NCBI RefSeq assembly: GCF_003722075.1 | Contig: NZ_RDSK01000017.1 | Span: 1 to 64,000, forward strand | From: Methanohalophilus sp. RSK | Lineage (GTDB): Archaea; Halobacteriota; Methanosarcinia; Methanosarcinales; Methanosarcinaceae | Direction: 5' to 3' | Length of the DNA: 64,000 nucleotides | Shown: positions 1 through 12,739 of the stretch, one piece after another | Numbering within the stretch: the stretch's first letter is position 1 | How the letters are laid out: each line of letters starts with the position of its first letter | Position numbers and translations under genes: made by a program | The notes under the pieces: model-generated | The model's database searches: none | The model's input: only the letters and a program-made list of their open reading frames with translations | What the model was told of the DNA's origin: nothing

Positions 1-2869
1 CATTGGTTGATTTCTCGATATCAATAAGGGGTGTGGAACCGAAGTAGTGGCTTGGATCCTCATCGGTTACATCTGCTTCAGTTGGATCAGTACCTGTGAC
101 GTTACCCAGGTTGGCGTACTGGCCTTCCTCAGCGATACCTGTGGCATTGTACATCCAGACTTCACCGGGTTCCAGGATACCGTCATCGTTTGTATCACCG
201 CTGAGATATGCTGGAGTGACTCCAGTGATGTTATCCTGCACATCGATGGAACTGAGGTTGACGTTACCTGTGTTTGTAACGTTGTAGACCCATTCGACGT
301 CAGCTCCGACAGGTACAAGCGGACCTGTAGGAGTATCGGCGTCATCTCCATTGGTTGATTTCTCGATATCAATAAGGGGTGTGGAACCGAAGTAGTGGCT
401 TGGATCCTCATCGGTTACATCTGCTTCAGTTGGATCAGTACCTGTGACGTTACCCAGGTTGGCGTACTGGCCTTCTTCAGCAATACCTGTGGCATTGTAC
501 ATCCAGACTTCACCGGGTTCCAGGATACCGTCATCGTTTGTATCACCGCTGAGATATGCTGGAGTGACTCCGGTTATGTTATCCTGCACATCAATGGAAC
601 TGAGGTTGACGTTACCTGTGTTTGTAACGTTGTAGACCCATTCGACGTCATCACCGACAGGTACAAGCGGACCTGTAGGAGTATCGGCATCGTCTCCATT
701 GGTTGATTTCTCGATATCAATCAGGGGTGTGGAACCGAAGTAGTGGCTTGGATCCTCATCAGTCACATTCTCTCCGACTTCAGGAGTACCTGTGACGTTA
801 CCCAGGTTGGCGTACTGGCCTTCTTCAGCAATACCTGTGGCATTGTACATCCAGACTTCACCGGGTTCCATGATACCGTCATCGTTTGTATCACCGCTGA
901 GATATGCTGGAGTGACTCCGGTTATGTTATCCTGCACATCAATGGAACTGAGGTTGACGTTACCTGTGTTTGTAACGTTGTAGACCCATTCGACGTCATC
1001 ACCGACAGGTACAAGCGGACCTGTAGGAGTATCGGCATCGTCTCCATTGGTTGATTTCTCGATATCAATCAGGGGTGTGGAACCGAAGTAGTGGCTTGGA
1101 TCCTCATCAGTCACATTCTCTCCGACTTCAGGAGTACCTGTGACGTTACCCAGGTTGGCGTACTGGCCTTCTTCAGCAATACCTGTGGCATTGTACATCC
1201 AGACTTCACCGGGTTCCATGATACCGTCATCGTTTGTATCACCGCTGAGATATGCTGGAGTGACTCCGGTTATGTTATCCTGCACATCAATGGAACTGAG
1301 GTTGACGTTACCTGTGTTTGTAACGTTGTAGACCCATTCGACGTCATCACCGACAGGAATGAAGGGACCTGTAGGAGTATCGGCGTCATCTCCATTGGTT
1401 GATTTCTCGATATCAATCAGAGGTGTGGAACCGAAGTAGTGGCTTGGATCCTCATCGGTTACATCTGCTTCAGTTGGATCAGTACCTGTAACATTACCCA
1501 GGTTGGCGTACTGGCCTTCTTCTGCAGTACCTGTGGCATTGTACATCCAGACTTCACCGGGTTCCATGACCAAGTCATCGTTTGTATCTCCACTTACGTA
1601 TGATGGAGTTACACCCATGTTGTCCTGGACCATGATGTCAGTCAGGTTCGAATTACCGGTGTTTGTGACATTGTAAGTCCAGACAACATCTCCACCAACT
1701 GTAACGTAAGGTCCTGTTGGAGTATCGGCATCCTCACCATTGGTTGCTTTCTCAATATCGATTGAGGAATTTACACCAAAGTAGTGACTTGGGTCTTCAT
1801 CAGTAACCGTTATCAGTCCATATTCACCAGTTACTGTGGCATTGTTCTTATACTGGCCTGCTACCGATATACCAGTTGCGTTATAAATCCATACTTCATC
1901 CGTCTGGAGTATATTATCTCCGTCATCACCACTTTGATATACAGCAGTTACACCTTTATCGTCCGTTACCGTGATGTTTGCCAATGGTATGTTACCTGTG
2001 TTTGTAACGTTGTAGACCCATTCGACGTCATCTCCAACTGGAATGAACGGTCCTGTAGGAGTATCGGCATCGTCTCCATTAGTTGATTTCTCGATGTCGA
2101 TTCCTGGTTCAGGTATTTGGAATACAATGCTTCCGAAATCCTCTCCCACTTGATCAGGTGTGGCACCTGCAGCAATTTGTACTTCAAATGTAGCACCTGG
2201 AACGAGTGTAAAATAGTTACTGAAATTACTGATACTTATCTCGTATACCGAATTCACTGCATCGTTTGACAGGCGTGCATCAACATCAGAATAGGTCATA
2301 CCGGTGTTAGTATCTACAGACCAATCATTGTTACTCACTGTAATAATTGAATAATTGGAATCCTGATATAAGTTGATAGTCCATGATTCACCTACACCAA
2401 GTCCAGAGCCTGCCGGGCCTGCAGCCCCTATGGTGTCCGGACTGGTATTAGATACGTCACCATCGCCATCATAATCACCGGGGATTCCATAGACTTCCGA
2501 CATTCCATAAAGTGTATCGTTTACCATATCATAGTGGGCATATATTTTTGAAATATCAGAACCACTGGATTCACCTGCTGATGCCATTGAATCATCAAAA
2601 TCCTTACCAGAATCATTCTTTGGATCAATCATGTTCCATTCAGAAGTTACCAAGATATTTACTCCACCTTGCCTTACTTCCATACGATCTCCAAAGGGCC
2701 CTTCAGGGTCATAAGTGTGTGAAAGATTATTGTTTTGCCCAAATGCCCAATTCACATCCCACTCCCCGGTATCATTGTATCCATCCACTGTTATAGCCGA
2801 GGCTGCGGGAATTGTAATAATTAACATTAGTGCTGCGCATAGAGCCAGCGCTATCTTCATTTGATTCAT
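1..2869 (-). CDS. Secreted surface protein with tandem DUF11-type repeats (3' part outside window)
   Basis: Reading from ATG at 2869 (GGAG 8 nt upstream; in-frame ATGs at 2887 and 2860 are alternatives) gives a signal peptide (charged MNQMK start, hydrophobic stretch, cleavage near PAASA), a unique domain of about 230 residues, then repeats of about 116 residues that each open with IDIEKSTNG and contain EWVYNVTNTGN and EVWMYNATG. These are hallmarks of the DUF11/DUF7507 beta-sandwich repeats of archaeal surface proteins. The frame stays open to base 1, so the C-terminus and any membrane or S-layer anchor are not visible. First repeats start at 2101 and 1762, later ones every 348 bp. Likely role: long stalk or adhesin outside the cell. 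The family is secure; the function is inferred only from architecture. Confidence 0.85.
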   Translation of the reverse strand, partial: MNQMKIALALCAALMLIITIPAASAITVDGYNDTGEWDVNWAFGQNNNLSHTYDPEGPFGDRMEVRQGGVNILVTSEWNMIDPKNDSGKDFDDSMASAGESSGSDISKIYAHYDMVNDTLYGMSEVYGIPGDYDGDGDVSNTSPDTIGAAGPAGSGLGVGESWTINLYQDSNYSIITVSNNDWSVDTNTGMTYSDVDARLSNDAVNSVYEISISNFSNYFTLVPGATFEVQIAAGATPDQVGEDFGSIVFQIPEPGIDIEKSTNGDDADTPTGPFIPVGDDVEWVYNVTNTGNIPLANITVTDDKGVTAVYQSGDDGDNILQTDEVWIYNATGISVAGQYKNNATVTGEYGLITVTDEDPSHYFGVNSSIDIEKATNGEDADTPTGPYVTVGGDVVWTYNVTNTGNSNLTDIMVQDNMGVTPSYVSGDTNDDLVMEPGEVWMYNATGTAEEGQYANLGNVTGTDPTEADVTDEDPSHYFGSTPLIDIEKSTNGDDADTPTGPFIPVGDDVEWVYNVTNTGNVNLSSIDVQDNITGVTPAYLSGDTNDDGIMEPGEVWMYNATGIAEEGQYANLGNVTGTPEVGENVTDEDPSHYFGSTPLIDIEKSTNGDDADTPTGPLVPVGDDVEWVYNVTNTGNVNLSSIDVQDNITGVTPAYLSGDTNDDGIMEPGEVWMYNATGIAEEGQYANLGNVTGTPEVGENVTDEDPSHYFGSTPLIDIEKSTNGDDADTPTGPLVPVGDDVEWVYNVTNTGNVNLSSIDVQDNITGVTPAYLSGDTNDDGILEPGEVWMYNATGIAEEGQYANLGNVTGTDPTEADVTDEDPSHYFGSTPLIDIEKSTNGDDADTPTGPLVPVGADVEWVYNVTNTGNVNLSSIDVQDNITGVTPAYLSGDTNDDGILEPGEVWMYNATGIAEEGQYANLGNVTGTDPTEADVTDEDPSHYFGSTPLIDIEKSTN
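26..1417 (-). repeat. Four near-identical 348-bp tandem coding repeats
   Basis: Units at 1417-1070, 1069-722, 721-374 and 373-26 keep an exact 348-bp period (116 codons) and differ by few bases; a further unit starts at 25 and leaves the window. The two upstream units (2101-1763 and 1762-1418) are more diverged and 339 and 345 bp long. Variation clusters in one segment, where units encode either ADVTDEDPSHYFG or ENVTDEDPSHYFG. The pattern points to recent unequal crossing-over or gene conversion, so repeat number may vary between strains. Confidence 0.95.
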
Positions 2870-3786: not shown

Positions 3787-3974
3787 AATTATAATTAGTG
3801 TTATTATATATCTATTTCTATCTAAAATATTATATATTTACTGAATGTATTATACTTATGTAACTGGGTTTTTTAACTAACACAAGGCTGGCTAATAAAA
3901 TCCATCGTAATTAAGATTCGAAACATAGTTTCTAAACATTGTTTTTGGCTTTATATTTATGGTTTTAATACAAT
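3787..3974. other. Intergenic region with GTTTCTAAAC motif
   Basis: AT-rich spacer between the winged-helix gene and the DUF116-like gene, both on the minus strand. It holds the promoter region of the latter and a copy of GTTTCTAAAC at 3928-3937, about 140 bp upstream of that gene. No other feature is seen. Confidence 0.35.
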
Positions 3975-4220
3975 TCAAAGTTTCAGTATCATTGCGAGAT
4001 CGTGGAAGGTTTTTCCTTTTTCGGTAGTAACATAACGGCCTCCTTCCTTACGTATCAATTCTTTTTTTTCCAGCATTTCCAGATATTTTTTTGCAATACT
4101 GAAGTTTAAATTTGCATTATATACGATCTGGGTTTTGTTTGCCCCACTCATTGCTGCGTCTAATATCTCAGCCGAAATATCGATTCTGCTTCTTCGTTTA
4201 ATGGCCACCACCTCCACCAT
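3975..4220 (-). CDS. Small winged-helix DNA-binding regulator
   Basis: An 81-residue basic protein. The order is a KRRSRIDI start, a helix-turn-helix (ILDAAMSGANKTQIVYNANL, about residues 20-39, then a recognition helix FSIAKKYLEML), and a beta-wing (IRKEGGRYVTTEKG, about 57-70). This matches the small archaeal ArnR1-like/HTH_45 winged-helix family, usually transcription repressors or activators that dimerise. The start is uncertain: a strong GGAGGTGG lies inside the first codons, so the true start may be a few codons further in. It lies amid surface-protein genes and is a plausible local regulator, but no target is proven. Confidence 0.8.
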   Translation of the reverse strand: MVEVVAIKRRSRIDISAEILDAAMSGANKTQIVYNANLNFSIAKKYLEMLEKKELIRKEGGRYVTTEKGKTFHDLAMILKL

Positions 4221-4298
4221 TTACTCTTTCAAAGGGGACAAATAAACCTCAATAAACCCCACAAAGTAAAGGCTGAGCATTTCAGACTCCCCATATAT

Positions 4299-4802
4299 TC
4301 ATTTTGACCGGTACCTGACCGCTACAAATACGGCTATTATAATTATTAATCCCAGTAAGACAAATTGAAACACAGAATTATCCTGAAATGTTTCCATTTT
4401 GTCTTTATTTACAGTAAGATCCAGTTCGATAGTATCTCCGGGGTTTGCATTTACAAGTTTTTCCCCATCATATTCCGCTTCATTTCCATTTACATAAATT
4501 GCTATATTTTTGAAATCATCAGGCTCAGCTGTCACAATCAGGCTGTTTCCCGACAGATCACCATAAACCCCTGCATTACCGGTTTGGATGCTTCCTATTA
4601 TCTGGTCGTTTATTTTTGCTGTAATGTTCGTACCAGGATCTGCCTGTGAACCATCAATTGTTACATTTCCTTTGATAACTAATGGTAAAGATGGCATTTG
4701 CGGGCTTTCCTCATCTGCTGCTACTGACATTGTTGATACTGAAAGCAACATGAATACTTGTAGTAGTATTATCAGCACACGCCAGGTTCCGGTACATTGC
4801 AT
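4299..4802 (-). CDS. Membrane-anchored surface protein, paralogue of the next gene
   Basis: A 167-residue protein with an N-terminal signal peptide (about residues 1-30, ending VAADEE), an extracellular beta-rich domain (SLPLVIKGNVTIDG, then TVTAEPDDFKN-type segments to about residue 130), and a C-terminal transmembrane helix (about 143-162) ending in basic YRSK, so the body faces outside. The ectodomain matches the protein encoded at 4898-5596 segment by segment (SLPL, a GT-xV-T strand, EPDD, a YV-G turn, PGD-ELxLT). The two are tandem duplicates, and this one lacks the Ser/Gly-rich linker. Family name and function are not known to me; a cell-surface binding or scaffold role is inferred. Confidence 0.75.
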   Translation of the reverse strand: MQCTGTWRVLIILLQVFMLLSVSTMSVAADEESPQMPSLPLVIKGNVTIDGSQADPGTNITAKINDQIIGSIQTGNAGVYGDLSGNSLIVTAEPDDFKNIAIYVNGNEAEYDGEKLVNANPGDTIELDLTVNKDKMETFQDNSVFQFVLLGLIIIIAVFVAVRYRSK

Positions 4803-4827
4803 GGGATCACATCACTTGATTGGGATT

Positions 4828-4851
4828 AGGCCGATCATTGAGGATCGGCCT
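4828..4851. terminator. Nine-base-pair hairpin between paralogous surface genes
   Basis: AGGCCGATC and GATCGGCCT form a perfect 9-bp stem with a 6-nt loop, followed on the plus strand by TTTTT. Both neighbouring genes run on the minus strand, where the T-run lies on the wrong side. It may be an mRNA stabiliser or processing hairpin after the upstream gene rather than a true terminator. Confidence 0.5.
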
Positions 4852-4897
4852 TTTTCACTAATAAGAGGAGCTCTTACTCTGGATATCCCTCTTTATT

Positions 4898-5596
4898 TCA
4901 CTTCTCTGATTTGTATTTCAGGAAGGCAATTACTCCCAGAAGTGCTACCAGTACAATCGCCATCACACCGATTCCTGTCATGGAAGTGGGCTGTGATTCA
5001 GGTGCTGGCACATCATCTCCTGTATCTTCCCCAGAAGAACTGACTCCTGCAGATGCGGTACCATCTGACTCGCTTTCCTCACCTGTGCTTTCACCTGTTG
5101 TTGCCTGATCCACACCATCGGTTGAAGTTGATGAACTTGCCATTCCACCACTGGATCCTGCCATTGAGCCACTGGATTCATCCGAGGATCCTGTGTCTTC
5201 ACTGCTGCCTGTAGATGCTGCTGTAAGACTGAGTTCAACGACGTCACCTGGTTGGGATTCAGCCAGTTGAGCTGTAGCATATTGATCTGTTTCCATACCG
5301 TCTACATAGAACTTCAGGTTCTCGTAGTCATCGGGTTCACAGGTTATTGCAAGCTGATTTTCTTTGCTAATAATTCCATCTGATTGCAGAGTGGTTGAAC
5401 CAACCTCTTTGCCATCAAATTCTACTGTAACTTCCGTTCCGGCAGGTGCTGCATTATCTCCCTGCATTACTTCGCCCTCTACTATAAGGGGCAATGAAGG
5501 TGAAGCACTGCATGCCGGTATCGTTGCTATTGCGAATAATAATACGAATACCTGTAAGATTATTGTGTATCTGGTAAAGCTCCCCTTTTTGATCAT
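4898..5596 (-). CDS. Membrane-anchored surface protein with Ser/Gly/Thr-rich linker
   Basis: A 232-residue protein preceded by AAGGTGATTAA before ATG at 5596, a good ribosome-binding site. Signal peptide about residues 1-30 (ending PACSAS), a beta-rich ectodomain about 31-128 homologous to the protein of the downstream gene, a low-complexity linker about 129-205 rich in Ser, Gly, Thr, Asp and Glu, then a transmembrane helix (about 209-227) and a basic tail KYKSEK. The linker probably spans the S-layer and may be O-glycosylated. Type I topology is clear from the sequence; the role is unknown. Confidence 0.75.
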   Translation of the reverse strand: MIKKGSFTRYTIILQVFVLLFAIATIPACSASPSLPLIVEGEVMQGDNAAPAGTEVTVEFDGKEVGSTTLQSDGIISKENQLAITCEPDDYENLKFYVDGMETDQYATAQLAESQPGDVVELSLTAASTGSSEDTGSSDESSGSMAGSSGGMASSSTSTDGVDQATTGESTGEESESDGTASAGVSSSGEDTGDDVPAPESQPTSMTGIGVMAIVLVALLGVIAFLKYKSEK

Positions 5597-5634
5597 TTAA
5601 TCACCTTGAGTTATTATATGCAAGATTATTTAAA

Positions 5635-5663
5635 TAAAAAAAGGTGAGTTCGCAAACCCACCT
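5635..5663 (-). terminator. Hairpin plus T-run after the cohesin gene
   Basis: On the minus strand AGGTGGGTT and AACTCACCT form a 9-bp stem with one G-T wobble and a 4-nt loop, followed by seven T residues. It lies about 30 bp after the stop of the cohesin gene and fits a terminator for the dockerin-cohesin operon. Confidence 0.7.
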
Positions 5664-5693
5664 CAAATTTTTACTTTTGTCTTGTCCCTCACA

Positions 5694-7523
5694 TCAGAAC
5701 CCGCTAAGGGTGTCTTCCCCGGTCACGTAGACCCAGTGTCCCTCGTATGGTCCCATGTCGTAGACGTCTGTTCCTACGTGGATTCCAGAGATCACTCCGG
5801 TTTCCCCGTTGTGGCCAATCTGCTCATAAGACATTGTGGCAGGGTTGTATGGTCCCTTCACGGTTGTGTAGGAGTCATCGATCGAGACGAGTACCAGTTC
5901 AGCAGACAGTGTGTCCGTTGAATCAGTGTAGCCAATCGCATTCCAGCCTTCGTAGACTGTCATTGTGGCAGGCACTGCTGGAACTTCAGGTTCGAGCATG
6001 TCCTCTGCAATGACCTGAGTGCATTCCTCGGAACTCTTGATCCAGTATCCCTTGAGTGGTTCGAAGTCAGTGACAGTGTCCCAGGTGCCTGCGGATGCAT
6101 TGTAGTATACAAGTGCATCATAGTTGACATCTGCAAGGACATAGCCAACACTGCTGTTGTTCAGTTCAGATGGTACTGATATGAAGTTCCAGCCGGACTG
6201 GATTGCAATTCCTTCTGGAAGGACCACATCGATTGTGGTGTCCCCACCAACTGGATATTCATTCATCTCGGTATCTTCTACTACACCATCAAAGGCGTAT
6301 GTACCTTCCTCGTTAGAGGCACTGACAGTGTATTCGAAGCTTGTGTCACCGTTGAGGATGAATGTTACCTCATTGCCAGCTACTATCACATTGGTTACAT
6401 TCAGTGTGGAACTGACATATTCGAATCCTTCAGGGATCGTCTCAACAACCTGAGAACCTACGCCGTCATTCATCACTTCGATGCTGACGTTGAACTCATC
6501 GCATGGTCCGACTTCTGCCGGATCAGGCATGATGTCCCTGGTTGCGTTGACTGTAACTTGATCTTCTACAGTAGCAGTACCACCATTAACTGATACACCT
6601 GCAATAGCTGTATTAGTTTCGTCCTTGAGAACCACATTGTTCAGGCTAAGGTTGTATGTGTCCGCTGCTGCTCCACTCTTGACTTCAAACTCTACTGTTA
6701 TGAAGTCTCCAGCTACCGGTGCATATGTACCTGTTGTGCTTGCCAGTCCATAGGAGATTGTGCCTGCACCGTCATCTCCACTTCCAGGCTCCACAAGTGC
6801 ACTGCTTCCAAGCAAATCATGGTCAGTTATACTGTTCACCATGAGGACACTTGAATCATAGTTCAGATCCATTGTAAGTGCTCTCAGGTCGTCCGCACCA
6901 GAATCAACTTCCACAGTCACACTGAATGTGTCACCGGGTGCGAGACCGGTTGTACTTGCTGGCATTACAGAAACTGCAGCTCCATCGGGTGTTGTTCCAC
7001 CATTTGCAATGGTAGCAGTACCACCATTAACTGATACACCTGCAATAGCTGTATTAGTTTCGTCCTTGAGAACCACATTGTTCAGGTCAAGGTTGTATGT
7101 GTCCGCTGCTGCTCCACTCTTGACTTCAAACTCTACTGTTATGAAGTCTCCAGCTACCGGTGCATATGTACCTGTTGTGCTTGCCAGTCCATAGGAGATT
7201 GTGCCTGCACCGTCATCTCCACTTCCAGGCTCCACAAGTGCACTGCTTCCAAGCAAATCATGGTCAGTTATACTGTTCACCATGAGGACACTTGAATCAT
7301 AGTTCAGATCCATTGTAAGTGCTCTCAGGTCGTCTGCACCAGAATCAACTTCCACAGTCACACTGAATGTATCGCCGGGTGCGAGACCGGTAGTATCCGA
7401 CGGATTGATAGACACCGACGGCTGTGCTGCTGCAGAACCTATACCCATGCATAAGACGCATGCAGCTAATATCAAAAGGGTGGTGACAGATGTCACCCAT
7501 CCCCCGAATTTTATTTCATTCAT
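5694..7523 (-). CDS. Secreted protein with two type I-like cohesin domains
   Basis: Start chosen at ATG 7523 because GGAGGTG lies 8 nt upstream; an in-frame TTG at 7541 overlaps that site. The 609-residue product has a signal peptide (about 1-34), two near-identical cohesin-like domains (about 35-165 and 180-312; each with GLAPGDTFSVTVEV, LRALTMDLNYDSSVL and AGDFITVEFEV), a DUF11-like domain (about 322-430), and two C-terminal SGWNFISVP / EGWNAIGY segments seen in methanogen surface proteins. Cohesins bind dockerins through calcium-stabilised loops. The gene lies 34 bp after one whose product ends in a dockerin, so the two proteins probably assemble outside the cell. No transmembrane anchor is visible. 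Domain identity is confident, the pairing is inferred. Confidence 0.88.
   Translation of the reverse strand: MNEIKFGGWVTSVTTLLILAACVLCMGIGSAAAQPSVSINPSDTTGLAPGDTFSVTVEVDSGADDLRALTMDLNYDSSVLMVNSITDHDLLGSSALVEPGSGDDGAGTISYGLASTTGTYAPVAGDFITVEFEVKSGAAADTYNLDLNNVVLKDETNTAIAGVSVNGGTATIANGGTTPDGAAVSVMPASTTGLAPGDTFSVTVEVDSGADDLRALTMDLNYDSSVLMVNSITDHDLLGSSALVEPGSGDDGAGTISYGLASTTGTYAPVAGDFITVEFEVKSGAAADTYNLSLNNVVLKDETNTAIAGVSVNGGTATVEDQVTVNATRDIMPDPAEVGPCDEFNVSIEVMNDGVGSQVVETIPEGFEYVSSTLNVTNVIVAGNEVTFILNGDTSFEYTVSASNEEGTYAFDGVVEDTEMNEYPVGGDTTIDVVLPEGIAIQSGWNFISVPSELNNSSVGYVLADVNYDALVYYNASAGTWDTVTDFEPLKGYWIKSSEECTQVIAEDMLEPEVPAVPATMTVYEGWNAIGYTDSTDTLSAELVLVSIDDSYTTVKGPYNPATMSYEQIGHNGETGVISGIHVGTDVYDMGPYEGHWVYVTGEDTLSGF
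6571..7452 (-). repeat. Tandem 441-bp cohesin-coding repeat
   Basis: The segments 7012-7452 and 6571-7011 encode the first and second cohesin and are almost base-for-base identical over most of the 441-bp period (147 codons), including silent positions. They diverge only at the edges. This indicates a very recent duplication or continuing gene conversion. Confidence 0.9.
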
Positions 7524-7557
7524 TAATTCTACACCTCCCAACGAAGTTGGTAGTTAT

Positions 7558-9759
7558 TTATCCCTGGTATACTCCAGAGAATTCAACAAAGTCGCCGAAG
7601 TCTACATCTCCATCGTCATCGAAGTCTGCAATTGGATTGTAGTTTGCATCCCCGGTGGACGTATCATATGCTCCAGAGAATTCAACAAAGTCGCCGAAGT
7701 TGATTACTCCGTCGTCATTGAAGTCTCCCTTTGTTACATCTCCACCATTCTGATCACTGATCATGTCTGGTGGGATGAACAGCCTGAAGTCACCGTGGGT
7801 GACAGCCATGTTGTCAGTGCAGAACTCATCATCGATCTGCAAATACAGTGCATCCACACAGGTCCAGTCCCCACTGCAGTCAGTGTCGAAGAGACCGACT
7901 GTAAAGGTTGGCCAATCTGCGGGATCTTCTTCAGGATCAAAGTTTGGAACTACACCCAGCAGGTCCACATCAGAATTCATTAGATTTTCATCCGCGTCAT
8001 CCAGGGTCTGTCCAAGATCCAGAGCATGCTGGTCCATTACCTTAGTGTTGTTTGGATAGAATGCTTCCTTAATGGAGACATCAGTCAGTCTGACATCATA
8101 GAGTGTTACAACGCCTGTTTCATTAGCAACTCCATCCATGTCGATGTATGCGTGGTCTACACCTTCAGTGAACTCATCATCGTTGTTTCTGTCAACGTAT
8201 TTTATGAGGTCATAGTTTGAGAACACCTCTGTAAGTGCATATTCTACATCGATATCACACAGGGTTACCTTGGTACCACATTCTGGCCACTCTTCCATTT
8301 CAAAGAATGGACTGTTCGGGTCGTTTACAGGTACGTACAGTCTGTGATCTCCGACTGTAACAGCCTTGTCATACTGGAATTTGTCTGTCATCTGCTGGAA
8401 GTAGAGTTTGTCCGGGCAGGTCCAGTCTCCGGTACAGTCAGAATCGATGTATCCGATCATATCGTTGAATTCAGCGTCCTGTTCCCAGCTAAATGACTCA
8501 AGGAGTCCATCCCAGAAGAAGCCAAGATCAAGGGTATCTACATCCCCATCTTCAACAACAGACCATGCATCATACACGTAAGTGTCGCCAGTAAGGCTCA
8601 CTTCAACTTCAACTAGCCTGACATCACCGGCATCTACTTGGTAATTGCCATTGACATCAAGATAGAGTGCATCTCCCAGTGTGTATCCTGGCAGCTCATC
8701 GTTGTCCATATACCGGATTAAAGTCTGGTCTGCGGTTGTGAGGTCGTGTCCGAGATCGAATTCATCACTGACCTTTACCTTGGTGTTTGGACCATATTGG
8801 GTTGAAACGTTCGTAAGCCTGACATCGCCGAAGGATACTTTTGAATCGTTATCCATGTCAACATACCATTCAGTGCCGCCACCATAGGTGTAGGATGCAA
8901 GTTGTGCATCAAGGTTTGTCATTAACATGTAGGTTGCATCGTGGTCACCCTGTATGACCTTTGTACCACATTCAGGTACACATTCATCCCCTGGGGGGAT
9001 GTAGAGTCTGGTGTCACCGATTGTGACGGTTTCATCCATCCAGTATGAGGATTCATTATGTGGCTGGATAAGGTAGAATTTGTCAGCAAAGCTCTTGTCA
9101 TCGCTGTTGTCGGCATCAACCCATTTTATAAGGTCACCGACACATCCTTCTCCGATTGGTGCAACTTCCATTCCGTATGCAGGATGTCCCTGGTCAATCT
9201 TGTCCCAGGACTGTCCATCTACACCCTGTGACTCTACGAAATCACCGGCATTAGATTCAGCAAGGGAATAAACATCCACTGCAGGCAGATCTGTTAACAG
9301 TATGTCACCTGTTGAAATTTCCGTATTTTCGTCAAGGTCAAAAGCTACACCATCATAGAGGTCATACATACCGTTGTCGTTGACATCTACATAGACGATC
9401 GGACAGTCAATTACTTCCTGAACAACATTCTGATTGTCCATATCGTTTGATGCAACCTTTGTGTTTGGCTCATAATTTGTGTGCCAGTTAGAAATACGAA
9501 TATCACCGGCAGTAATAATTCGTTCATCCTGACCATTGAAATCGGGCTCCAAGTCAACATAGTAATAACCATGTAGCGACTTTACTACAGTCGCATTTAG
9601 AGCATCATACAGGACAAATGTAGTCTCATTATCACATTGTTCTACTTCTGTGCCACAGGGTTTATCCCAGGTGCACTTTACGTCCTCTGCCGCAGCTGCG
9701 CCTGTGAAGGCCAGGCATAACATTGCTGCAAGCAAGAACACACTTATTTTCCATTGCAT
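7558..9759 (-). CDS. Secreted acidic triple-repeat protein with C-terminal dockerin
   Basis: ATG at 9759 follows GGAGGT by 8 nt. The 733-residue protein has a signal peptide (about 1-24, ending GAAAAED), three acidic modules of roughly 210 residues, and a C-terminal dockerin. Each module carries CGTKV, then a V-x-x-GDxRL-type strand, PNTKV, a CxGDWTCxDxLYxQ segment and a closing GDxRLFIPP or GDHRLYVPV. The dockerin (about 675-733) has two EF-hand-like loops, DFNDDGVINFGDFVEFSG and DFDDDGDVDFGDFVEFSG, with the expected D-x-N/D-x-D-G spacing. It is upstream of and co-directional with the cohesin gene. Acidity and many D-x-D-x-D loops suggest calcium binding. The module family is unknown to me; it shows no recognisable enzyme motif. 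Confidence 0.88.
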   Translation of the reverse strand: MQWKISVFLLAAMLCLAFTGAAAAEDVKCTWDKPCGTEVEQCDNETTFVLYDALNATVVKSLHGYYYVDLEPDFNGQDERIITAGDIRISNWHTNYEPNTKVASNDMDNQNVVQEVIDCPIVYVDVNDNGMYDLYDGVAFDLDENTEISTGDILLTDLPAVDVYSLAESNAGDFVESQGVDGQSWDKIDQGHPAYGMEVAPIGEGCVGDLIKWVDADNSDDKSFADKFYLIQPHNESSYWMDETVTIGDTRLYIPPGDECVPECGTKVIQGDHDATYMLMTNLDAQLASYTYGGGTEWYVDMDNDSKVSFGDVRLTNVSTQYGPNTKVKVSDEFDLGHDLTTADQTLIRYMDNDELPGYTLGDALYLDVNGNYQVDAGDVRLVEVEVSLTGDTYVYDAWSVVEDGDVDTLDLGFFWDGLLESFSWEQDAEFNDMIGYIDSDCTGDWTCPDKLYFQQMTDKFQYDKAVTVGDHRLYVPVNDPNSPFFEMEEWPECGTKVTLCDIDVEYALTEVFSNYDLIKYVDRNNDDEFTEGVDHAYIDMDGVANETGVVTLYDVRLTDVSIKEAFYPNNTKVMDQHALDLGQTLDDADENLMNSDVDLLGVVPNFDPEEDPADWPTFTVGLFDTDCSGDWTCVDALYLQIDDEFCTDNMAVTHGDFRLFIPPDMISDQNGGDVTKGDFNDDGVINFGDFVEFSGAYDTSTGDANYNPIADFDDDGDVDFGDFVEFSGVYQG

Positions 9760-9829
9760 TCCTTTTTACCTCCGTTGAGATCTGATCTTAGTTTCATTTC
9801 ATAGCGGTCAAAAGGGATGCAGTTAACCG

Positions 9830-9943
9830 GAACAGCCCACATGCCATAAGGGAAGGAATTAACAGTCCCGATAAACATCGGGAGGTCAACACCTTCAACA
9901 ACAAACGCTCTCACTTCCTTCCCCTTGGCAAGTGAAGCTGTTC
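9830..9943 (-). other. Long imperfect inverted repeat in the leader of the dockerin-cohesin operon
   Basis: Arms 9830-9858 and 9915-9943 (29 nt each) are complementary apart from a few mismatches: GAACAGC pairs with GCTGTTC, CACATGCCA with TGGCAAGTG (one mismatch), and GGGAAGGAA with TTCCTTCCC. The 56-nt loop contains a second perfect hairpin, CCCGAT-aaac-ATCGGG at 9867-9882. The element lies between the predicted promoter near 10000 and the ATG at 9759, so the minus-strand transcript should fold it in its roughly 210-nt 5' leader. It could control translation or RNA stability. No known riboswitch is recognised. Confidence 0.7.
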
Positions 9944-9995
9944 GGGTACCACCACCATACCCCTTACCACTTCACATTAATCTACATCACGAATG

Positions 9996-10005
9996 GTTAT
10001 ATACT
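9996..10005 (-). promoter_or_regulatory. TATA box for the dockerin-cohesin operon
   Basis: Minus strand reads AGTATATAAC, a good archaeal TATA box. Transcription would start near 9970-9975, giving a leader of about 210 nt that contains the inverted repeat at 9830-9943. Confidence 0.55.
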
Positions 10006-10017
10006 CCTACGAACCGC

Positions 10018-10042
10018 AGATTAGTACCATAAGTACGAATCT
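10018..10042. promoter_or_regulatory. Imperfect palindrome upstream of TATA box
   Basis: AGATT-a-GTAC and GTAC-g-AATCT face each other around a 5-nt centre, giving a 25-bp dyad 13 bp upstream of the TATA box of the dockerin operon. Position and symmetry fit a dimeric regulator site. No protein is assigned. Confidence 0.4.
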
Positions 10043-10425
10043 ATAATAGGTAAGTCAAAAAAAGTAGATATATCAAAAAACACTCATCATATTTGCAGCA
10101 TTGCGTTTTTGGATCATCTATGCCTGTCTATATAATATCTATATGATTATGATTATATTGTTCAGGCAAATCTTCAGGTCTTACTACTAAATATTCAGTA
10201 ATTACCGGATATTATATTTCATATGTTACAACAACTTCGCAGCAATGTGTTTTTTTAATAAGCATGCAATACATCCTCTTTTACTCAAAAAAACAATGTT
10301 TCTAAACTCATATCTTCATTTTGTCTTAGTAAAATCAATAAAAAGAGTACAAACGGACCTTTCGGGAAAAGTTATTTACATTTCAAAACAGAAGTTGTTT
10401 GCAGTCATTATTATGGGGGTATTTA
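10043..10425. other. Intergenic region between divergent genes
   Basis: AT-rich DNA between the minus-strand surface operon and the plus-strand nitroreductase gene. It contains another GTTTCTAAAC at 10298-10307. No convincing gene or RNA was seen. Confidence 0.35.
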
Positions 10426-10926
10426 ATGGAAGTTTTTGAAGCAATAGAGAAACGCACCAGCATCCGGCAGTTCCTTTCCCGCGAGGTCGCTGCCGATACT
10501 CTGGATAAAATACTCTATGCAGGCACCCAGGCACCGAACGCCTTTAACAGCGAACCCTGGGAATTCATCCTTGTCAAAGAGGAGAAACTAAGGGCACAGC
10601 TTGCCAGTATGAGAAAAAAGGCATCAGAACAGCAGAAGGCCATCGAGACCGCACCCGTTATTGTCGTGGTTTGTTATAACAAGAAGTTCGGGGACGAAGC
10701 TGTAGGTTCAGCTTTTGCCTGCATAGAGAACATGCTGCTTGCTGCAACTGCTGAAGGACTGGGAAGTGTAATCCTTACATTCCATGGCAAAAAAATAATG
10801 GACATGTTCGCCATTCCGGATGGTTTTGAAGTGGCAGCCGTAATTGCTATGGGGTACCCTGCAGAATCTCCTGAAAAACCTTCTCGTGTGGCAGTCAGGG
10901 ATAAAATGCACATAGATAAGTTTTAA
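10426..10926 (+). CDS. Nitroreductase family flavoprotein
   Basis: A 166-residue protein starting MEVFEAIEKRTSIRQF, chosen because GGGGGT lies 5 nt upstream of ATG 10426; a TTG 27 nt upstream is less likely. The N-terminal R-x-S-x-R-x-F motif contacts the FMN phosphate, and the APNAFNSEPWEF segment is the usual second conserved block. The family uses FMN and NAD(P)H or another carrier to reduce nitro compounds, quinones or flavins. It precedes a ferritin-like and a flavodiiron gene, all co-directional, which suggests a redox stress cluster. The substrate cannot be told. Confidence 0.85.
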   Translation: MEVFEAIEKRTSIRQFLSREVAADTLDKILYAGTQAPNAFNSEPWEFILVKEEKLRAQLASMRKKASEQQKAIETAPVIVVVCYNKKFGDEAVGSAFACIENMLLAATAEGLGSVILTFHGKKIMDMFAIPDGFEVAAVIAMGYPAESPEKPSRVAVRDKMHIDKF

Positions 10927-10976
10927 TTACTCATGTTGTCAAATATGATAGCTACTGATTGTGGGAGTTGAATAAA

Positions 10977-11465
10977 TTGCAAGACATACTCAAAGATGTA
11001 GATATAGAGCTCGAGAACATTCGTACGGTTGAAGAGGCAGTGGAAATGGCAATTGCCCTGGAGGATCAGGGGCATGATTTCTATCTTGAAAGAGCAAAAC
11101 TTTCCGGCAATCCCGGGGCAAAGAAAACCTATGAGTTCCTGGCCGAGGAAGAAAAACACCATGCTCAGTACCTCCACAAATTTCTTGAGGGAAAAGAAGT
11201 CGAAATACCTGAATCCAGTATCCCGGATTTCCGTGGATCGTTGAACGTGGAATTCACAGAAAACAATCTGGAAGAGATTGGTATTATGCTTGGTGCACTG
11301 CGTTTTGAAAGAAAGAGTGAATATTTCTATCTTGAACTCGAAAAGAAAGCCACCGAAAGGGCAGAACAGGAATTTTTCAGCAAGATAGCCAAAGTTGAGC
11401 GGGGCCACTATGAACTCATTGATGGTTTGCTGGATGAGGCCACCGGTTTCAGGATGCAGACATAA
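10977..11465 (+). CDS. Ferritin-like (rubrerythrin-type) diiron protein without rubredoxin domain
   Basis: Start set at TTG 10977, 9 nt after GGAG; an upstream in-frame TTG at 10959 would place the ribosome site inside the gene. About 162 residues form a four-helix bundle with the ligand pattern E (ALEDQGHDFYLE), E-x-x-H (EEEKHHAQYL), E (FERKSEYFYLELE) and E-x-x-H (VERGHYELI). There is no C-terminal rubredoxin CxxC pair, unlike classical rubrerythrin. Such proteins reduce peroxide or store iron. The gene ends 18 bp before fprA, which supports a joint role in oxygen and peroxide removal. Confidence 0.82.
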   Translation: MQDILKDVDIELENIRTVEEAVEMAIALEDQGHDFYLERAKLSGNPGAKKTYEFLAEEEKHHAQYLHKFLEGKEVEIPESSIPDFRGSLNVEFTENNLEEIGIMLGALRFERKSEYFYLELEKKATERAEQEFFSKIAKVERGHYELIDGLLDEATGFRMQT

Positions 11466-11483
11466 ATTTGGCAGGTGAATTTT

Positions 11484-12686
11484 ATGGATACTCCAGAAGA
11501 GCCACTGGAAATTGCAGAAGGGGTTTACTGGGTTGGTGTAATCGACTGGAACCTGCGTGATTTCCACGGCTATGAAACTCCCCGCGGGGGCACATATAAT
11601 GCTTACCTTATAGTAGATGAAAAGATCACTCTCATAGACACTGTAAAAGCATCCTTTGCAGACGAGATGATCGAAAGGATCAGCAGGATAGTGGACCCCG
11701 CAAAGATCGATTATATAGTAGCCAATCATGTGGAGATGGACCACTCCAGTGCCCTGCCAAGGATCCTGGAAGTTGCTCCGAATGCCAGGATATTTGCCAC
11801 CGAAAGGGGCAAAACCGGACTAAATGAATATTATGCCGAATCCGGGTGTAGTGGCTGGAACCTTGAGACCGTGAAAACCGGGGACGAATTAAATACCGGC
11901 AAAAGGACCCTTATGTTTATTGAAGCGGTCATGCTCCACTGGCCTGACAGTATGCAGACTTACCTCAAAGAGGATCACATTCTCTTTTCCAATGATGCAT
12001 TTGGACAGCACATTGCCACCTCCAAGAGGTTCGATGATCAGGTAGAAGACGTGATGGAAGATGCCGCCATATATTTTGCCAATATACTGACTCCCTTTGC
12101 ATCCCGAATACTCAAACATCTTGAAACTGTCGGGAAACTAGGATTACAGATCGACATGATCGCTCCTTCCCATGGTGTTATCTGGCGCAATGATCCGCAA
12201 CGGATAATCGATGCCTATGCAAAATGGGCTTCCGGGGCAAGTGAGCAAAAAGTGCTTGTGATCTATGATTCAATGTGGGGCAGCACAGAGATGATGGCAA
12301 AAGCAATTGCCGACGGAGTGCGGGCCTCAGGCACTGAGGTTGTCTTGTTCCACCTGCGCAAAAATGACTGGAGCATGCTCATCAAGGAATTAATGGAATG
12401 CCGGGTCTTTGCCCTTGGATGCCCCACAATGCACAATGGGATGTTCTTTACAATGGGTGGTTTCCTGACGTACCTGAAAGGTTTGCGCCCCAAAGACAAA
12501 AAGGTATCATTCTTCGGGTCCTATGGCTGGGGTGGCGGTGCAATCAGGCAGATGGAAGAAGCTCTCAAGAATACCAAAATGGAGTTTGTGGAAGACCCTT
12601 TGAAGGTGAAATTCAGACCTGAAAAGGAAGATTTAGAGGGTTGCAGGCAACTGGGAATAAAACTGGGTGAAATTGCCCGGTCCTGA
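11484..12686 (+). CDS. fprA: F420H2 oxidase-type flavodiiron protein FprA
   Basis: ATG 11484 is preceded by AGGTGAA at the right distance; GTG 11475 is within that site. The 400-residue protein has an N-terminal metallo-beta-lactamase-like diiron domain with HVEMDH (H82, E84, D86, H87) and further His/Asp ligands, then a flavodoxin domain from about residue 254 (VLVIYDSMWGSTEMMAKAI). In methanogens this enzyme oxidises reduced F420 and reduces oxygen to water in the cytoplasm. It follows a ferritin-like gene at 18 bp, and the three genes from 10426 form a likely oxygen-defence operon. Confidence 0.9.
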   Translation: MDTPEEPLEIAEGVYWVGVIDWNLRDFHGYETPRGGTYNAYLIVDEKITLIDTVKASFADEMIERISRIVDPAKIDYIVANHVEMDHSSALPRILEVAPNARIFATERGKTGLNEYYAESGCSGWNLETVKTGDELNTGKRTLMFIEAVMLHWPDSMQTYLKEDHILFSNDAFGQHIATSKRFDDQVEDVMEDAAIYFANILTPFASRILKHLETVGKLGLQIDMIAPSHGVIWRNDPQRIIDAYAKWASGASEQKVLVIYDSMWGSTEMMAKAIADGVRASGTEVVLFHLRKNDWSMLIKELMECRVFALGCPTMHNGMFFTMGGFLTYLKGLRPKDKKVSFFGSYGWGGGAIRQMEEALKNTKMEFVEDPLKVKFRPEKEDLEGCRQLGIKLGEIARS

Positions 12687-12739
12687 TTATTCCCAAATCT
12701 TTTTATCCATATTGAACAAAGAAAACAAGGAGTGATATA

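Follow-up and report, generated by a model that had tools for sequence, protein, structure and literature searches.

The subject of this study is a gene pair of the salt-loving methanogen Methanohalophilus sp. RSK (assembly GCF_003722075.1). It lies within a window of 64,000 nucleotides, the whole stretch that was analysed (positions 1 to 64,000 of contig NZ_RDSK01000017.1), in an operon on the minus strand with the order A-B-C-D-wHTH (wHTH, winged helix-turn-helix). Gene A encodes a protein with a C-terminal dockerin and gene B a protein with two cohesins (Table 1). Dockerin and cohesins are part of a block that makes the operon a mosaic. The explanation that fits best as a whole, namely that secreted A and B dock onto each other and that the docking pair entered the operon in a one-block exchange, is considered very probable.

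Table 1. Features of the operon and positions in the window (bp, base pairs; ORF, open reading frame).
Feature	Position	Strand	Basis
Gene A, secreted triple-module acidic protein with C-terminal dockerin	7558..9759	-	ORF, 733 aa, homologues
Dockerin, aa 672-733, two F-hand repeats sharing an identical FGDFVEFSG segment	7561..7746	-	profile and PDB matches
Dockerin calcium loop 1, aa 679-690, DFNDDGVINFGD	7690..7725	-	sequence, alignment
Dockerin calcium loop 2, aa 712-723, DFDDDGDVDFGD	7591..7626	-	sequence, alignment
A-B gap, 34 bp, ribosome site GGGAGGTG at 7532-7539	7524..7557	-	sequence
Gene B, secreted scaffold with two cohesins, one DUF11-like repeat and C-terminal double GWN region	5694..7523	-	ORF, Pfam
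Cohesin 1	7020..7403	-	PF00963, E 1.4e-17
Cohesin 2	6579..6959	-	PF00963, E 7.9e-18
DUF11-like repeat left in B, fourth of the relatives' array, native	6210..6542	-	90 bits, alignment
C-terminal double GWN region of B, native	5697..6209	-	alignment, DNA comparison
Replaced block: dockerin, gap, B signal peptide, both cohesins	6553..7759	-	DNA comparison, cohesin tree
Gene C, with signal peptide, an Ig-like portion, a stretch rich in Ser/Thr and a membrane helix at the C-terminus; syntenic candidate anchor	4898..5596	-	
Gene D, like C but shorter; candidate anchor, syntenic	4299..4802	-	
Small winged-helix-like protein at operon end, kept also in Methanolobus	3975..4220	-	

The dockerin and cohesin genes

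The gene A product starts with a signal peptide, which is followed by three related acidic modules, and has a net charge of -124. Both loops of its dockerin carry D or N at the calcium-ligand positions 1, 3, 5 and 12, and the two loops fit within about 60 residues as in known dockerins. Searched alone against Pfam Dockerin_1, the window dockerin reached 15.3 bits (cut-off 22.9) and aligned with positions 1-49 of 57; its relatives score higher. PF00404 was matched at E ≤ 0.01 by 11 of the 19 members of the dockerin family, with a best value of 2.8e-10. In the PDB, the dockerin 2y3n_B was found by the window sequence (phmmer, 4.8e-5), and the profile of the 19-member family (A7) placed it at E 3.5e-12 ahead of all other EF-hands. 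From these matches, the A tail can be considered homologous to known dockerins. According to a profile search, gene A is the sole protein with this dockerin in the genome.

Gene B was assigned its start at ATG 7523, which has the good ribosome site GGGAGGTG; an upstream TTG at 7541 was also listed by the ORF tool. Because B starts at this ATG behind GGGAGGTG, exactly 34 bp lie between the A stop and the B start. Its two cohesins are 97.7% identical in protein and agree at 373 of 384 positions in DNA. They scored 65.5 and 64.7 bits on PF00963 (cut-off 24.1), and the whole protein 111.6 bits (E 4.4e-32). In the AlphaFold model of B, residues 35-315 have a predicted local distance difference test (pLDDT) mostly of 70-89, and the GWN part is partly below 50. 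Foldseek returned cohesins as the best matches, with the type II cohesin dyad 3l8q at E 4.5e-13 and a template modelling (TM) score of 0.80 over the length of the Archaeoglobus cohesin 2xdh. The TM scores of about 0.8 refer to single cohesins. The search confirms the cohesins alone. By sequence and predicted fold, the cohesins of B are beyond question.

In Pfam and NCBIfam scans, neither A nor B contained a glycoside hydrolase or a carbohydrate-binding module above the curated cut-off. The pair is therefore not filed as a cellulosome, and this reading was ruled out. No family was assigned to the A modules in these scans. An initial annotation made from the letters and reading frames had described a two-loop dockerin on A, a triple acidic module of no known family, two near-identical cohesins on the next gene 34 bp away and no glycoside hydrolase in either protein. 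All of this was borne out. The check by Pfam models that it proposed gave a split result, as the cohesins passed clearly and the window dockerin itself stayed below its cut-off.

A three-sequence dockerin profile was searched in 186 genomes of the order and matched 22 of them. Among the eight genomes of the window genus, only the window genome has the dockerin, and most of the other genomes bearing it belong to one genus, Methanolobus. There, the carrier of about 1130-1215 aa is unrelated to A by sequence; it is directly followed by a gene with two to three cohesins and the same GWN region and then by a membrane-anchored C-like gene. The same type of dockerin is also found on CAP-domain and NosD-like proteins of Methanolobus. 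A gene with two or three cohesins lies directly downstream on the same strand in 18 of 18 large dockerin proteins of the order, counting the window and all dockerin proteins of at least 1130 aa that end in the module; a 1233-aa frame of G107, which matches only weakly and internally (31 bits) and has a membrane helix at its C-terminus, was excluded. Both dockerin proteins of another family of the phylum (G207) are also directly followed by a cohesin gene, so that all 20 of 20 loci share this gene order.

Further arrangements of these domains were observed. In G207 (L252:10476-13501), another dockerin protein directly precedes a single-cohesin membrane-anchored gene and adjoins a pair of the A'-B type. 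A frame of 610 aa in a genome of the genus Methanolobus (L106:1830-3662), incomplete at the contig end, combines cohesin and dockerin and is possibly a self-linking unit. A B gene of the Methanosarcinaceae (L142:10007-12355) has an insertion between its cohesins in the alignment, which in our own reading is presumably a fasciclin domain. The window genome itself has a second cohesin locus on contig C14 (L051:4398-8032) that is also present in G007. One of its proteins combines GLUG, PKD and cohesin domains, the other has a cohesin and a membrane helix, and the larger of the two has a half-dockerin-like stretch at its end.

Mosaic structure of the operon and the replaced pair

The operon is syntenic in three genomes of the window genus (G007, G006 and G002). 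DNA identity to G007 is 88% over 7760-12698 and 87% over 3900-6552, with none between. The same gap was found towards G006 and G002, where the flanks are 92-94% identical. Instead, the block aligns colinearly with Methanolobus, at 66% over 1131 bp (E 5e-69). It reaches from the linker before the dockerin to just past the second cohesin and includes the B signal peptide, which also resembles Methanolobus. In the cohesin tree, the window cohesins are sister to the cohesins of Methanolobus scaffolds with a support of 0.98.

At the same place, the A tail of the relatives is about 50 residues long, consists of two helical halves and has a single EF-hand loop (EF tail in the following), and their B starts with three DUF11-like repeats in place of cohesins. 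Since EF tail and DUF11-like repeats in the relatives stand against dockerin and cohesins within one block in the window, tail and receptor changed together. The A cargo modules and the C-terminal region of B stayed through the exchange; the DUF11-like repeat and the GWN region of B share 83-92% protein identity with Methanohalophilus relatives. By these comparisons, the dockerin-cohesin pair is not ancestral to the operon and replaced another pair of domains in one block. Gene A homologues with another tail occur in Methanohalophilus and Methanococcoides, and also in G012 and G013, which we take to be Methanohalobium and Methanosalsum.

The body of A is 88% identical to G007 and matches G006 and G002 only in patches. 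Such hypervariability of the modules between close relatives would be expected of exposed surface proteins. The modules also hold many D-x-D-x-N/D...GD-x-R-L motifs resembling further calcium loops (7750-9684), for which the Pfam and NCBIfam family search found no family. A Methanococcoides homologue (L147:5480-8156) has an insertion of about 150-200 aa in the second module of the alignment.

The EF tail was compared with dockerins by the same measures. Its calcium loop is present in the first half only, unlike the two loops of a dockerin, and it scored 18.2 bits on Dockerin_1, below the cut-off. Its halves agree with each other at positions 3, 6, 7, 13 and 14 (p 5e-5 each in 36 distinct sequences, and 0.0008 or lower in 18 non-redundant ones). 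Given this internal two-fold covariation, the EF tail may function in the manner of a dockerin, although it is not classed as one. Distances between EF tails and DUF11-like repeats are correlated with r 0.76, and partial values of 0.73 and 0.71 remained when the GWN region or the A body was controlled for. A switch of tails was also seen in other proteins. Orthologous CAP proteins with bodies 44-49% identical bear the EF tail in Methanohalophilus, including the window genome, and their Methanolobus counterparts end in the dockerin. Between G101 and Methanolobus, the tail of NosD-like proteins (32-33%) is switched likewise. From covariation, co-divergence and tail switches, docking of the EF tail on DUF11-like repeats is proposed as a candidate interaction. 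The wider claim that EF tail and tandem DUF11-like Ig repeats form a second docking system of methanogen surfaces, functionally interchangeable with cohesin and dockerin, and that lineages switch codes by exchanging tail and receptor together, is considered about as likely as not.

In the window genome, EF tails are also found on a CAP protein, two unknown proteins and a rhodanese-like protein (L221:6171-7115, L221:8982-11028 and L222:5776-6195; contigs C1 and C9). As the CAP and rhodanese-like proteins retain the EF tail and B one DUF11-like repeat, the cell may run both codes.

Mutual docking and its alternatives

When the two repeats of the same dockerin were compared in 39 dockerins, positions 10, 11, 13, 14 and 15 agreed in 171 of 195 cases against 90 expected (p 5e-5). 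The agreement was also found in 18 non-redundant dockerins, and the agreeing positions vary widely between dockerins. At positions 2 and 4, which are also variable, the repeats do not agree. Positions 10 and 11 are known specificity positions, and symmetry is described as the basis of the dual binding mode (PMC8063739). The dockerin family of A has such two-fold symmetric recognition positions. Distances between dockerins and cohesins are correlated with r 0.88, and a partial r of 0.87 (p 0.0005) remained after removal of the GWN region of the same B gene.

On this evidence, A and B would be exported and clip together outside the cell. Calcium would fold the A dockerin, which could then bind either B cohesin in one of two orientations, and one B would hold up to two A molecules. 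B may be kept near the membrane by its C-terminal GWN region, by the membrane-anchored products of C and D, or by both. The docking pair would have arrived from a Methanolobus-like donor as one block of about 1.2 kb by recombination in linkers, and it would have displaced the native pair, i.e. the single-EF-hand tail on A and the DUF11-like repeats on B, for which a docking role is likewise proposed. The suggestion of the initial annotation that the two proteins form a surface complex with B as scaffold still stands, given that A is the sole carrier of its dockerin and that gene order and co-divergence agree with it.

Several points weigh against this picture. Binding of the A dockerin to the B cohesins is deduced from sequences. 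Genetic linkage alone would also yield co-divergence, and it could contribute here because the GWN region lies farther from dockerin and cohesins than these lie from one another. The AlphaFold model of A, made with 12 sequences, had a mean pLDDT of 43 and is a failed fold. No membrane or wall anchor was recognised in the sequence of B; with B lacking an anchor of its own, its attachment to the surface is deduced from the neighbours C and D. Finally, the exchange is present in one genome only.

The last point would also suit an assembly chimera, in which the block was joined in error. This is scarcely credible, as the reading frames are open across both joints and the joints lie in inter-domain linkers. 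The contig spans 100 kb, and the genome has a completeness of 99.6% and a contamination of 0.21%. The sampled genomes reach at most about 66-73% DNA identity to the insert, so that no contaminant suggests itself. A stronger alternative, but still an unlikely one, is that the surface locus is hypervariable, for instance under virus or grazing pressure, and recombined neutrally, so that tail and receptor were replaced together as mere neighbours. The patchy body of A indicates that the locus recombines often. However, no locus had a mixed pair: the dockerin tails of the large operon proteins all adjoin cohesins, and the A-type EF tails all adjoin DUF11-like repeats wherever the neighbour is present in the data. 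The co-divergence of both pairs also exceeds that of the control regions.

Both domains could also be functional without being partners. The A dockerin would then bind another cohesin, from the C14 pair or from a neighbouring cell, and the B cohesins would hold other cargo. The genome does have the two divergent cohesins on C14, and the dockerins on CAP and NosD-like proteins imply that scaffolds in Methanolobus can take several cargos. This arrangement is nevertheless quite improbable here. The cohesins on C14 match much more weakly (33 bits) and belong to another surface locus, no other protein of the genome offers this dockerin to B, and the transfer of the pair in one block together with the 20 of 20 adjacent loci favours mutual binding of A and B.

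Beside the operon, a 348-bp unit is repeated in tandem in 4.6 copies that are 95% identical (window 1-1609). On the minus strand, the array codes for a surface-type protein with repeats of 116 aa. The operon itself gave no match in Rfam.

Relation to known docking systems

The best matches of both partners are cellulosomal type II pairs, namely DocCel48 of B. cellulosolvens (2y3n) and the ScaA dyad of A. cellulolyticus (3l8q). Like DocCel48, the A dockerin is built of two symmetric F-hand repeats whose recognition positions are equal; in DocCel48, this supports dual binding (PMC8063739). As in these systems, B carries tandem cohesins on one chain. In contrast to these, A and B have no glycoside hydrolase, cellulose-binding module or SLH anchor; they are archaeal, and the cargo is an acidic triple-module protein of unknown family.

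Among archaea, cohesins and dockerins are known in Archaeoglobus and are abundant in anaerobic methanotrophic archaea (ANME), which have S-layer/dockerin proteins and scaffold-like proteins bearing as many as five cohesins (PMC9012536). A and B resemble Archaeoglobus fulgidus 2xdh, whose fold is matched by the B cohesins, and the ANME proteins in being archaeal surface proteins without cellulase partners. They differ from both systems in forming a fixed two-gene unit that is conserved across genera and in having a docking pair exchanged between two alternative types. Like the S-layer tile proteins of the Methanosarcinales (DUF1608/PF07752), which are from the same order, A is secreted and acidic with tandem modules. 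Unlike them, neither A nor B matched PF07752, and the PF07752 proteins of the genome lie elsewhere (C13 and C1); A was thus ruled out as main S-layer protein. The literature searched held nothing relevant on DUF11 with dockerins or on the exchange of docking pairs. As far as it shows, the conserved unit of two genes, the exchange in one block and the alternative pair are new, and the domains belong to a wider archaeal kind that is already known.

To our knowledge, no clear use has emerged for the cohesins and dockerins of archaea in the years since they became known. A compact two-gene unit in culturable methanogen genera makes the choice of partner directly testable, and the exchange of both halves in one step is a natural experiment from which the binding partners among the domains can be predicted. 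If the proposed docking of EF tail and DUF11-like repeats is true, it could explain how several proteins of these archaea (CAP, NosD-like and rhodanese-like) are mounted, and protein engineering may be able to use the two as an orthogonal coupling pair that tolerates salt.

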